Source: Bdellovibrio sp. 22V
GTDB lineage: Bacteria > Bdellovibrionota > Bdellovibrionia > Bdellovibrionales > Bdellovibrionaceae
DNA: 64,000 nucleotides
Assembly: GCF_030169785.1 (NCBI RefSeq)
Contig: NZ_CP125854.1
Location: 3,472,001-3,536,000 of the forward strand
Reading direction: 5' to 3'
Shown here: positions 1,048-21,429 of the stretch, in pieces
Position numbering within the stretch: position 1 is the stretch's first letter
Layout of the letters: each line of letters begins with the position of its first letter
The notes under the pieces: generated by a model
What the model saw: only the letters and a program-made list of their open reading frames with translations
Databases searched by the model: none
Told to the model about the DNA's origin: nothing
Program-made: the position numbers and the translations under genes

Positions 1048-1455
1048 TTAGATATCGTAGTGAAATACAACGGGCATCTGTAAATCAGGATGCAGGCTGA
1101 GTTTTACGGGACAGTTTAAAGCGATAGTCTCAAGTTTTTTGCGGTAGTCATGCGGCACGCTTTGCGGCAGATGAAGTGCCACTGTGAGTTTCACAATACG
1201 ACGTGGATTCACGCCCATTTCTTTTTCCACGTTCACACGAGAACCTTTTAGCTCAATGCCATCTTTATCGGCAGCAATCGCCATAACCGTCAGCATACAG
1301 CTTCCAGTCGCTGCACCGACAAGATCCGTCGGAGAGAACGCTTCGCCTTTACCGTTATTATCTTTTGGAGCATCCGTACTGATGTGGGCGTTTGATGGAC
1401 CGTGCGTGATTTCGCAGTGTTTTTCGCCTTGATATAAGGCCGTCATTTTTACCAT
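1048..1455 (-). CDS. OsmC/Ohr family protein
   Basis: A small protein of 135 residues of the OsmC family, whose members reduce organic hydroperoxides with a pair of cysteines. Both expected cysteines are visible, one in GSCMLTVM and one in NCPVKLSL. The N-terminal region has the usual PTDLVGAATGSC stretch. The ATG at 1455 is preferred over a TTG five codons earlier because a GAGGAG ribosome-binding site lies eight bases before it. The gene is monocistronic and convergent with pbpC. It is closer to the YhfA-like branch than to classical Ohr. The substrate cannot be told from sequence. Confidence 0.85.
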   Translation of the reverse strand: MVKMTALYQGEKHCEITHGPSNAHISTDAPKDNNGKGEAFSPTDLVGAATGSCMLTVMAIAADKDGIELKGSRVNVEKEMGVNPRRIVKLTVALHLPQSVPHDYRKKLETIALNCPVKLSLHPDLQMPVVFHYDI

Positions 1456-1507
1456 GTTAGAACTCCTCAAAGCTCCAACATGGACTCAAAATTCAGAACC
1501 GTCAATC

Positions 1508-2005
1508 CTAGGAGGACATTTCCTCGATGATTTTACGGAGGCGCATTTCCGACGATTTAGACATATCAGCGTAGATTTTTCTTAGGTGAGTCGAACGAAC
1601 GGGATCGTTTTTAGAAGCCTTCATTTCTCGACCAAACTTAAGTGCGGCACAAACGCTTTCGATCACCAGTTTTCGTTTGGAGTCCTTGGTAATGAAATCA
1701 AAAGCGCCCAGAGAAAGAGCTTCTAGCGCGCGAGAGTGATCGCCATGCGCCGTTAACACAACAAAAGGAGTCATCTGTCCCAAAGAGCGAACGTAAGCTA
1801 AAAACTTAAGACCGTTCATTTGTGGCATTTCGATATCAGACAGAATGGTATCGAACTCTTGGGCTTTTACGTATTGCAGAGCTGCCGCACCGTTTTCGGC
1901 TTCCACGATTTCATCGACAAATTCTTTTAAGAAATGTTTGAGAAGCTCACGAATATCAGAGTCGTCTTCTACGATTAACAGACGGCTTTTTTCTTCTGAA
2001 GGCAT
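1508..2005 (-). CDS. Response regulator, CheY-like receiver with short C-terminal extension
   Basis: Last gene of a three-gene phosphorelay operon. It starts nine bases after the hybrid kinase stops. Residues 8-125 form a receiver domain: the acidic pair EDD near residue 14, the phospho-acceptor aspartate in LSDIEMPQMNG, the threonine in VVLTAHGD and the lysine in FITKDS. The last 40 residues form a charged helix with no DNA-binding or enzymatic domain, so output is probably by protein-protein contact. The likely phosphodonor is the Hpt protein or the kinase encoded upstream. Confidence 0.88.
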   Translation of the reverse strand: MPSEEKSRLLIVEDDSDIRELLKHFLKEFVDEIVEAENGAAALQYVKAQEFDTILSDIEMPQMNGLKFLAYVRSLGQMTPFVVLTAHGDHSRALEALSLGAFDFITKDSKRKLVIESVCAALKFGREMKASKNDPVRSTHLRKIYADMSKSSEMRLRKIIEEMSS

Positions 2006-15123: not shown

Positions 15124-15150
15124 TTGATTAACAAAAAGAAATTACAAACA

Positions 15151-15180
15151 AAAGGCTGCCTTTCGGGGCGGCCTTTTTTA
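15151..15180 (+). terminator. Rho-independent terminator
   Basis: AAAGGCTGCC pairs with GGCGGCCTTT around TTTCGG, followed by a T run. It ends the transglycosylase-like transcript 30 bases after its stop. Confidence 0.9.
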
Positions 15181-15226
15181 TTTTACCCGGGTAATATTGA
15201 CATCGCTATTTTACCCGGGTAATATT
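15180..15226 (+). promoter_or_regulatory. Near-consensus sigma-70 promoter with two palindromic operators
   Basis: TTGACA (15197-15202), a 17-base spacer and TAATAT (15220-15225) form an almost perfect promoter for the DUF2239 gene. The 19-base element ATTTTACCCGGGTAATATT occurs twice, at 15180-15198 and 15208-15226, 28 bases apart. Each copy holds the perfect palindrome TTACCCGGGTAA. One copy overlaps the first bases of the -35 box, the other the spacer and -10 box. This is a layout for strong repression. Confidence 0.85.
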
Positions 15227-15249
15227 AAGTGAAATCAAGGAGGCGCAAG

Positions 15250-15825
15250 ATGGTTTTTCAACTCGATAGAGAGTATACAGCCTTTGCAGACGCTCAGAAA
15301 ATTGCAAGCGGTGATCTTCGTGATGTCGTCGTAAAAGTGAAAGAGTTTTTAAAAGACGAATCTAAAGCTACAGTTTTAATTTTTGACGATGTTACCAGCC
15401 AGCAAGTCGAAGTCGATTTGCGTGGCACGGCAGCGACGATTGTGAAAAGAATTGAAGAAAGCTCGCTTCCATCCGACGAAAAAATCGGCGGGCGCGGGCG
15501 ACCTAAGCTCGGCGTGGTTCCGCGTGAAGTAACGCTTCTGCCTCAGCACTGGGAATGGTTGGCAAGTCAGCCTGGAGGCGCTTCCGTAACTCTTAGAAAG
15601 CTTGTCGAGGAAGCCAAGAAAAAGAATGCCGCCAAAGATCAGCTGCGTATGGCACAAGATGCGACTTACAAGTTTATGAATGTGATGGCGGGAAACCTGC
15701 CTTCCTACGAAGAGGCATTGCGGGCGTTATATGCGAAGGACCACGATAAGTTTTCCAAGCTCATAGCGAAATGGCCCAAGGACATTAAACATCATGTGCA
15801 AAAAATTTCAGAAGCTGCGTTTTAG
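15250..15825 (+). CDS. DUF2239 family protein
   Basis: 191 residues. The family signature GRGRPKLGVVPREVTLLPQH is present and followed by HWEWLASQPGGAS. No biochemical role is established that I know of. The stretch from REVTLLP through SVTLRKLVEEAKK looks like a strand followed by two helices, as in ribbon-helix-helix DNA-binding proteins, and GRGRPK resembles an AT-hook core. With the tandem palindromes in its promoter, it may be an autorepressor (inference). The ATG at 15250 follows GGAGG by seven bases. It overlaps the next gene by four bases, tail to tail. Confidence 0.85.
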   Translation: MVFQLDREYTAFADAQKIASGDLRDVVVKVKEFLKDESKATVLIFDDVTSQQVEVDLRGTAATIVKRIEESSLPSDEKIGGRGRPKLGVVPREVTLLPQHWEWLASQPGGASVTLRKLVEEAKKKNAAKDQLRMAQDATYKFMNVMAGNLPSYEEALRALYAKDHDKFSKLIAKWPKDIKHHVQKISEAAF

Positions 15826-19523: not shown

Positions 19524-19910
19524 ATGAAAATTGAAAAACAAAACGATAGACAACATAAATTATTAAAATCCCAAAGAACGGGAGAAGAGTTTTCGCTTTC
19601 TTCAGTCATCTCTGAGTCTTTGCAGTCGAATGATTTGTTTTTGTCACATGAAATTATTCGTCCGGGAGCTCGCTCTTCAGGTGCGCATTTTCATAAAGAA
19701 ACCGACGAGATTATTTATATTCTTAAAGGTTCTTTGCTTGCCGTTGAAGGCGAAGACAAAATCCAAGTCAGTGAAGGAGATTGCCTTCTTTTCGAAAGAA
19801 ATTCGGGCCGGCCTCATTATCTAATCAATGAAAGCGAACAAGAAGCGCAAGCACTTCTTGTTCGAAAGAAAATTGATGTGATTGACGTTGTTTACGGCGT
19901 GAATTCTTAG
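19524..19910 (+). CDS. Cupin-domain protein
   Basis: 128 residues forming a single small beta-barrel. Cupin motif 1 is seen in GAHFHKETDEIIYILKG and motif 2 in GDCLLFERNSGRPHYLIN, with histidine and glutamate metal ligands. It may be an isomerase, dioxygenase or binding protein. It ends with a four-base tail-to-tail overlap with the decarboxylase gene. Confidence 0.85.
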   Translation: MKIEKQNDRQHKLLKSQRTGEEFSLSSVISESLQSNDLFLSHEIIRPGARSSGAHFHKETDEIIYILKGSLLAVEGEDKIQVSEGDCLLFERNSGRPHYLINESEQEAQALLVRKKIDVIDVVYGVNS

Positions 19911-20386
19911 TTCAGGCCGGATTTTGTAAGACCTAACATCGCATCCAAAGCTCCGGGAGTCGTGCGGAAAGCAACATTAAGCCGATTCCATGTATTTATA
20001 ATGCCAATCGCGAATGTCAGTTCTGAAAGTTCTTTCTGGGAAAAATGTTTGCTAACACTTTCGAAGATTTCATCAGAGATTCCACGATCTGTAAGTTTCG
20101 TGACAGCCTCTGTCCATTCAAGAGCCGCCCGTTCCTGCTCCGTGAACAAGGGAGAGTCTCTCCACACGGAAATATGATAAACGCGCAGTTCTCTTTCGCC
20201 GCGAAGTTTGGCTTTTTTAACATCCAAATCCAAGCAGAACGCGCAGCCATTTATTTGCGAGGCGCGGTGATGGGCTAAAGCAAGGATTGTTGGACTGAGC
20301 GAGAGTTTATCCAGAGACATGCTCATTTCGGTCAATTTTCTTGTAAGTTCGGGGGCCATTTCTGCGTAATTTAATCTTTGGCTCAT
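19907..20386 (-). CDS. Carboxymuconolactone decarboxylase family protein (AhpD-like)
   Basis: 159 residues, all helical. The redox CxxC is in HRASQINGCAFCLDLDV near residue 49. AhpD-like proteins act as peroxidase partners or decarboxylases, and this gene type is the classical target of ECF41 sigma factors. It diverges from such a factor here, with a matching promoter on its own strand. An AAGGAG site lies just before the ATG. Confidence 0.9.
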   Translation of the reverse strand: MSQRLNYAEMAPELTRKLTEMSMSLDKLSLSPTILALAHHRASQINGCAFCLDLDVKKAKLRGERELRVYHISVWRDSPLFTEQERAALEWTEAVTKLTDRGISDEIFESVSKHFSQKELSELTFAIGIINTWNRLNVAFRTTPGALDAMLGLTKSGLN

Positions 20387-20408
20387 AAAAAGCTCCTTTT
20401 GCGCTTAA

Positions 20409-20435
20409 GACGAATAAAGAGATTGGATTGTGACA
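20409..20435 (-). promoter_or_regulatory. ECF41-type promoter for the decarboxylase gene
   Basis: On the minus strand TGTCACA (20435-20429), a 16-base spacer, then CGTC (20412-20409). These are the -35 and -10 motifs described for ECF41 sigma factors. The expected start of transcription lies about 15 bases before the ATG. Confidence 0.85.
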
Positions 20436-20455
20436 AAAAAAATATTTTCGTGAAT

Positions 20456-20482
20456 TGTCACAAACGGACGATTAAGATCGTC
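20456..20482 (+). promoter_or_regulatory. ECF41-type promoter for the sigma factor gene
   Basis: TGTCACA (20456-20462), a 16-base spacer and CGTC (20479-20482), the same pattern as the divergent promoter. Transcription would start about one base before the ATG at 20491, so the message may be leaderless. Confidence 0.83.
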
Positions 20483-20490
20483 TTTAAGGT

Positions 20491-21429
20491 ATGGGAACTC
20501 AAAATAGTTATATTCAAGAATGGGAACGTCTCTTTGCGGAACATAGATCTTATTTGATCTCGTTTGCTTTTAGAATGACGGGGAGCTTATCTGAGGCAGA
20601 GGACATCGTACAGGATGTTTTCATTGAGTGCGCGGAAGTGAACCCTACCTCTATACAGAATCCTAAGTCGTGGCTGACAAAGGTATGCTCCAACAGAGCG
20701 CTGGATCATTTGAAGCTCGCTTATAAGAAGCGTGAGACTTATCCGGGCACTTGGCTTCCCGATGCCGTTCCTGACAGCTTTCAAATCTGGGGCAATCTGG
20801 CGAACAATGATTCTCCGGATAAAAATATTCTTCTGTCCCAGAGTTTGACGACGTCGTTTTTACTTTTAATTGAAAAACTCACTCCTGAAGAGCGCGTTGT
20901 ATATCTTTTAAATGAGGTTTTTGAATATCCTTTTAAAGATATCGCGGAAGTTCTTAAAAAATCCGAAGAAGCCTGTCGCAAGATCGCTGAAAGAGCGCGC
21001 AAGGCCGTTCTTTCGGGAAGATCTAAATTTGTGCCACAACCAGTGGGTGCCGAAAAAGTGATCGCACAGTTTTTTGATCTAGCAAAACAGGGAAATAGCG
21101 CCGGTTTGATGGACCTTCTTGCCGAAGGCTCTGAGTTCTGGTCTGACGGCGGAGGAAAAGTTGCCGCAGTAAGAGATGTCGTTACAGATACGGCGCGCAT
21201 TGCCGAATTCTTCAAAGGAGTTTGGACTTCTAAGTTCTTTAAAGGCGATGACTATAAGGTGGAGTATCAGATGGTGAACCTCTTGCCGGGCGTGGTTATT
21301 TCCAGAAAATCTGAAGACGGCTGGGTCTTTGAAACAATTATGTCTTTTGAAATTCAAGATGGAAAGATCGTCCGCATTTACTCGCAGAGAAATCCCGACA
21401 AACTGAATGTTTTAACAAAGATTCAGTAG
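20491..21429 (+). CDS. ECF41-type RNA polymerase sigma factor with SnoaL-like C-terminal domain
   Basis: 312 residues. The sigma-2 region (FAFRMTGSLSEAEDIVQDVF) and sigma-4 region (LNEVFEYPFKDIAEVLKKS) are followed by an NTF2/SnoaL-like extension of about 100 residues. The linker WLPDAVP and the DGGGK motif (near 217) are the signatures of ECF41, where the extension replaces a separate anti-sigma factor and tunes activity. Both its own gene and the divergent decarboxylase gene carry ECF41 promoters, so it is probably autoregulated. The inducing signal is unknown. Confidence 0.93.
   Translation: MGTQNSYIQEWERLFAEHRSYLISFAFRMTGSLSEAEDIVQDVFIECAEVNPTSIQNPKSWLTKVCSNRALDHLKLAYKKRETYPGTWLPDAVPDSFQIWGNLANNDSPDKNILLSQSLTTSFLLLIEKLTPEERVVYLLNEVFEYPFKDIAEVLKKSEEACRKIAERARKAVLSGRSKFVPQPVGAEKVIAQFFDLAKQGNSAGLMDLLAEGSEFWSDGGGKVAAVRDVVTDTARIAEFFKGVWTSKFFKGDDYKVEYQMVNLLPGVVISRKSEDGWVFETIMSFEIQDGKIVRIYSQRNPDKLNVLTKIQ

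Follow-up and report, generated by a model that had tools for sequence, protein, structure and literature searches.

A twin palindromic operator conserved with DUF2239 genes points to an autorepressor family

A pair of palindromic operator sites lies over the promoter of a DUF2239 gene in Bdellovibrio sp. 22V. The same paired element is coupled to DUF2239 across bacterial phyla and is also used at other genes. The presence of this paired switch at DUF2239 almost everywhere strongly suggests a new repressor family, and we consider it very probable that DUF2239 is a one-component autorepressor that binds the operators. A sequence-only reading of this DNA had proposed autorepression, and the proposal is supported by the conservation of the operator with the gene, from which we infer DNA binding.

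The DUF2239 promoter in the Bdellovibrio window

The window, that is, the whole stretch of 64,000 nucleotides analyzed here, is part of a 3.6-Mb single-contig genome. The features of the DUF2239 locus are listed below.

15150-15177, + strand: intrinsic terminator closing the upstream SLT gene, with a 12-pair stem, a loop of 4 bases and a run of T
15179-15198, + strand: operator 1, TATTTTACCCGGGTAATATT, with the exact 12-bp palindrome TTACCCGGGTAA at 15183-15194; shares the first two bases of the -35
15197-15202, + strand: -35 element, TTGACA (from sequence)
15207-15226, + strand: operator 2, the identical 20-mer TATTTTACCCGGGTAATATT, with the exact palindrome TTACCCGGGTAA at 15211-15222; spans the -10
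15220-15225, + strand: -10 element, TAATAT, 17-bp spacer from the -35
15237-15243, + strand: Shine-Dalgarno sequence, AAGGAGG (from sequence)
15250-15825, + strand: DUF2239 gene (PF09998), 191 aa from the ATG at 15250; proposed autorepressor
15487-15627, + strand: proposed DNA-contacting module, residues 80-126, GRGRPKLGVVPREVTLLPQHWEWLASQPGGASVTLRKLVEEA (from conservation and AlphaFold helices)

The sequence-only reading described a promoter bracketed by a repeated 19-base element with a 12-base palindrome, one copy touching the -35 and the other covering the -10. The coordinates bear out both points, with operator 1 running to 15198 and operator 2 occupying 15207-15226. The full repeat is one base longer than the 19-base element, an identical 20-mer, two copies of which, 28 bp apart, flank the TTGACA-N17-TAATAT promoter (15197-15225). 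Besides this pair, the window contains no further copies of TTACCCGGGTAA at up to two mismatches. Three exact occurrences were found in the whole 3.6-Mb genome, versus approximately 0.2 expected for exact 12-mers, and the third, at 2660834, has a one-mismatch partner 35 bp off and precedes an MFS gene.

The terminator at 15150-15177 insulates the DUF2239 promoter from the upstream SLT gene. Both operator sites probably lie outside the transcript, which makes an RNA element or structure unlikely, and the position of the operators on the promoter argues for repression by blocking polymerase. An alternative start of the DUF2239 gene is possible at an upstream GTG (15229). The earlier remark that no other regulator gene is adjacent holds, as the neighbors are the transglycosylase SLT gene and a gene for an unannotated secreted-looking protein. 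Elsewhere in the window (19907-21429), an AhpD-like gene is divergent from an ECF-type sigma factor gene, and a similar AhpD-like gene also lies beside an Rrf2-MFS-DUF2239 cluster in the relative G005 (L068).

Coupling of the operator to DUF2239 across bacteria

Scanning DUF2239 genes elsewhere recovered the palindrome in the Bdellovibrionales, in Paenibacillaceae-side Bacillota, in Alphaproteobacteria and in a panel of many phyla, and the proposal thus survived the refutation test named in the sequence-only reading. Within the first group, we analyzed 100 genomes from the genus, family and order of the window, 35 of which encode PF09998. Nearly every readable DUF2239 locus bears the twin palindrome, placed either directly upstream of the gene or ~1.3 kb upstream, before an MFS gene with DUF2239 next. 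When the 20-mer was allowed up to three mismatches, 30 genomes had both motif and gene, 5 only DUF2239, 2 only the motif and 63 neither (Fisher p = 5e-18). The matches in the two motif-only genomes are single, weak and unconnected with the DUF2239 system. Among the five DUF2239 genomes lacking a match, one locus is cut at a contig end and one is a fragment; in G030 the sites are just past the mismatch limit, and in G041 and G094 a recognizable operator site was not found, which counts against autorepression by DUF2239.

An MFS orthologue (at least 60% identity) occurs in 15 genomes of the genus, and G020 is the only one of these without DUF2239. The operator is absent at the G020 orthologue. 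G012 and G016 retain DUF2239 and the operator and are missing that MFS orthologue. The operator thus follows DUF2239 and not the exporter, in what is a single natural experiment because G020 represents the loss in one lineage.

DUF2239 occurs in more than ten bacterial phyla. Peptide patterns based on the conserved module of the protein were used to collect a panel of 80 loci, 79 of which entered the motif test. Judged by record titles, the panel covers Pseudomonadota, Bacillota, Acidobacteria, Chlorobi/Ignavibacteria, Chloroflexi, Melainabacteria, Planctomycetes, Verrucomicrobia, Armatimonadetes, an actinobacterium and others, with many metagenome bins and with named isolates of Cohnella, Paenibacillus, Shouchella, Microvirga, Burkholderia-type strains and Geothrix. 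By eye, the twin element can be made out in most of the panel. With a motif model built only from 54 Bdellovibrionales sites, 77 of 79 loci had their best match at -170 to 0 of DUF2239, against 2.2 expected, and 75 of 79 had both best matches there, against 0.07 expected. The two exceptions are bradyrhizobia, in which the twin element lies 1.27 kb upstream, before a DUF1330-like gene.

Because the panel was chosen with peptide patterns, we repeated the test on loci found by HMM. The best match was just upstream of DUF2239 in 16/16 loci on the Paenibacillaceae side and in 21/21 loci from Alphaproteobacteria near Kaistia. We also examined 151 genomes on the Paenibacillaceae side, allowing one mismatch per site. 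A site was present in 15 of the 18 genomes with DUF2239 and in 1 of the ~132 without it (p = 7e-17), and the three missed loci keep only the second site. In the one exception without DUF2239 (L274, ~1380-1640, reverse strand), the operator precedes the remnant of a DUF1330-like gene of which just the final codons are left, in what looks like a regulon that has decayed.

The operator consensus is roughly (A/T)TTT(T/A)A(C/T)CCGG(G/A)TAATATT, with a core of ACCCGGGT and outer arms ATTTT/AATAT. The CCGG core carries ~1.7-1.9 bits per position and the outer-edge positions are near zero. Operator centers are 25-29 bp apart in 66 of 79 loci. Some loci depart from this arrangement. In Glaciimonas soli (L132, 2870-2950), three ACCAAGGT palindromes replace ACCCGGGT before DUF2239; this natural operator-specificity variant is the only clear one seen, and no matching change is obvious in its conserved module, a point against autorepression by DUF2239. 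Two Achromobacter loci (L149, L155) have three sites before DUF2239, not two, at approximately -107 to -51. In three Chlorobi-type loci (L100, L105, L128; approximately -130 to -30) the sites are 53-54 bp apart, about double the usual spacing, which suggests another promoter arrangement.

These distributions also bear on the possibility that the palindromes are recognized by an unlinked factor, for example one of the TetR, MarR or Rrf2 type, with DUF2239 as a mere target. Such a reading would account for the lack of a recognized DNA-binding domain in DUF2239, and G005 does have an Rrf2-type gene directly upstream of its MFS-DUF2239 operon. However, the Rrf2 gene is missing from the neighborhoods of other relatives, no regulator neighbor is shared across phyla, and genomes without DUF2239 hardly ever have the operator, which was not found at the promoter of another regulator either. 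A single unlinked factor would need to have stayed with DUF2239 through more than ten phyla, and we regard this explanation as improbable. Neither neighbor clustering nor tblastn found a regulator gene recurring beside DUF2239 across phyla.

Two specific candidates were rejected. The Bdellovibrio LexA box is TTAC-N3-GTAA; the spacing here is N4, not N3, and the sites occur almost only at DUF2239-linked genes. The Rrf2 protein of G005 was set aside as the regulator since its gene adjoins the operon in G005 only.

The DUF2239 protein and its conserved module

The protein encoded in the window matches PF09998 with 252.3 bits (cut-off 25) over profile positions 2-181 of 182. The best-conserved stretch of the family is at residues 81-125, with 3.66 bits per column versus 2.37 elsewhere, and has the pattern GRP(K/R)LGV..(R/K)E(V/I)(T/S)LLP.HW.WL..Q.GGAS..(L/I)R.L. 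Conservation of the module in the 80-locus panel was partly selected for by the peptide patterns; the HMM-found sets are unaffected, and the invariant columns recur in the HMM-found alignment A1 and in A2. In the deeper AlphaFold model (mean pLDDT 89.9), the N-terminal part is alpha/beta, the GRP arm belongs to a flexible linker, and helices 98-105 and 110-125 are followed by C-terminal helices. The residues that contact DNA would most likely be those of the GRP(K/R)LGV arm and the following strand-helix-helix.

The sequence-only reading likened the segment around REVTLLP to ribbon-helix-helix proteins and recommended structure prediction there. The AlphaFold monomer places two module helices after REVTLLP, at 98-105 and 110-125, but lacks the strand at 91-97. 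The ribbon-helix-helix fold is unconfirmed, with a 2% hhalign probability and no relatives in the PDB. The AT-hook-like GRGRPK that it reported is present in the window protein, and GRP(K/R)LGV is found in all 110 relatives compared, but no more than 28 of the 110 have RGRP, the canonical core of AT-hooks. Overall, the module appears to fit a ribbon-helix-helix or helix-turn-helix element plus a minor-groove arm; that it is a true ribbon-helix-helix has, in our view, slightly less than an even chance.

Searches for known DNA-binding relatives were negative. A Pfam scan of the protein returned only DUF2239 and two sub-threshold unrelated matches, with no TetR_N or MarR HMM match. The module segment did not match any ribbon-helix-helix family in Pfam at E up to 10, and hhalign against RHH_1 gave a probability of 2.1% with an RHH_1 profile that is thin (8 sequences) because RHH_1 is so rare in these genomes. 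AT_hook in Pfam gave no match at E up to 1, where the filter can drop so short a model. PDB sequence searches with DUF2239 found no relatives, and the PDB structures returned by Foldseek and VIA-align for two AlphaFold models were not meaningful matches (best Z 4.6, with the module barely covered). No publications on the family or its palindrome were found in the open literature, with subscription journals mostly outside the coverage of the search.

The failure to find a known DNA-binding fold, and the presence of distinct N- and C-terminal parts outside the module, would agree with DUF2239 being the partner or anti-factor of a DNA binder (a co-repressor, ligand sensor or antitoxin-like protein), so that its coupling to the operator is real but indirect. 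Yet the best-conserved part of the protein combines a basic GRP-type arm with a strand-helix-helix, which is what one would expect for DNA contact, and no conserved partner gene was seen across the neighborhoods of DUF2239. We consider indirect coupling very improbable, and direct binding by DUF2239 is the reading that we retain.

Genes served by the operator, proposed mechanism and comparison with known systems

Since most operator sites lie before DUF2239 itself, the sites away from it matter most. These are at MFS, SnoaL, DUF1330-like and GIY-YIG genes, all in DUF2239-bearing genomes. A twin operator in the genome of the window precedes an MFS transporter gene that is divergent from a VOC-type gene. 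The operator lies before a SnoaL gene in G005, before a DUF1330-like gene in two bradyrhizobia, before a GIY-YIG gene in Kaistia and before a second DUF2239 copy in Microvirga. A relative of the bradyrhizobial DUF1330-like gene is directly behind DUF2239 in Alcaligenes. At the MFS locus of the window's genome (L005, 5831-5885), the twin operators have a spacing of 35 bp instead of 28 and could control the MFS gene, the divergent VOC gene, or both.

Partner genes were traced by targeted tblastn, as neighbor clustering gave mostly spurious overlapping ORFs. MATE exporters are directly behind DUF2239 in 13 of the 80 loci. The best NCBIfam model for the partner MFS protein is the myxochelin exporter MxcK, below the cut-off, and a macrolide-esterase-like hydrolase, also below the cut-off, is a partner mainly in Bacillota. 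Further partners are VOC, SnoaL, DUF1330-like and GIY-YIG-like proteins, the last recognized by eye. A small GIY-YIG-like protein, identified by eye, is encoded next to DUF2239 or behind its operator at L216 (1075-1425), L101, L115, L145, L148, L163, L165 and L172. The partners point to export and detoxification, which makes a small-molecule inducer likely. On the best reading of the sites, efflux and detoxification genes are under the control of the operator along with the DUF2239 gene.

With most sites before DUF2239, co-occurrence would also be expected if a promoter and its gene had always traveled together. The idea that the element is simply a strong promoter moving with the gene by horizontal transfer, its palindromes serving no regulator, can draw on the good -35 and -10 hexamers and on the 24 plasmid records that carry DUF2239, but it is hardly credible given that the CCGG core and palindromic arms outside the hexamers are strongly conserved and neighboring positions are not, that the operators are nearly fixed while DUF2239 proteins elsewhere are 42-66% identical to that of the window, and that unrelated genes are served by the same twin element.

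Under autorepression by DUF2239, a dimer of the protein would bind each palindrome. Operator 1 adjoins the -35 and shares a little of it, and the -10 lies within operator 2, so that bound protein would exclude RNA polymerase; we infer repression and not activation. DUF2239 would thereby shut off its own promoter together with nearby or operator-linked drug-export or detoxification genes. In several lineages its gene shares an operon with an MFS or MATE exporter, as it often does, or adjoins esterase, VOC, SnoaL, DUF1330-like or GIY-YIG genes, and in others some such partner genes have the twin operator at a separate place in the genome. Export or detoxification is probably switched on when a small-molecule or stress signal frees the operators of the repressor; the N-terminal alpha/beta part or the C-terminal helices may be the sensor. 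We would give even odds to the broader proposal that DUF2239 is a new, widespread class of ligand-responsive repressors in more than ten phyla, with a DNA-binding fold so far absent from solved structures, a GRP(K/R)LGV minor-groove arm plus strand-helix-helix, near-universal paired ACCCGGGT operators and control of efflux and detoxification.

If correct, this would assign a function to a family still called an uncharacterized protein conserved in bacteria and would add a new bacterial transcription factor family with a known operator. The operator would be a ready tool for listing regulated genes in any DUF2239-bearing genome. The MFS, MATE, macrolide-esterase-like, VOC and SnoaL partners suggest that cells are inducibly protected from toxic or antibiotic-like compounds, and the identity of the inducer would show what the DUF2239-linked exporters are for. 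It is unusual for a local repressor to have an operator so nearly fixed from one phylum to the next, and the system would be useful as a model of protein-DNA conservation.

Several known systems offer comparisons. AT-hooks and the GRPR arm of Hin recombinase combine a GRP(K/R) arm with AT-rich arms beside the operator core, as in DUF2239, although the canonical RGRP is present in only 28/110 DUF2239 members and minor-groove contact is putative. The strand-like REVTLLP followed by two helices recalls the beta-alpha-alpha order of ribbon-helix-helix repressors (Arc, MetJ, CopG, omega); in contrast to these, the first helix of DUF2239 is about one turn shorter and the module is in the middle of a 190-aa protein, not at its end. 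DUF2239 has no HMM relationship to TetR/MarR-type efflux repressors (TetR-TetA, QacR-QacA, MarR), forms a separate family and has a different predicted architecture, but resembles them in its proposed autoregulation, in its palindromes over the -35 and -10, and in its location beside or in an operon with MFS/MATE exporters and detoxifying enzymes.
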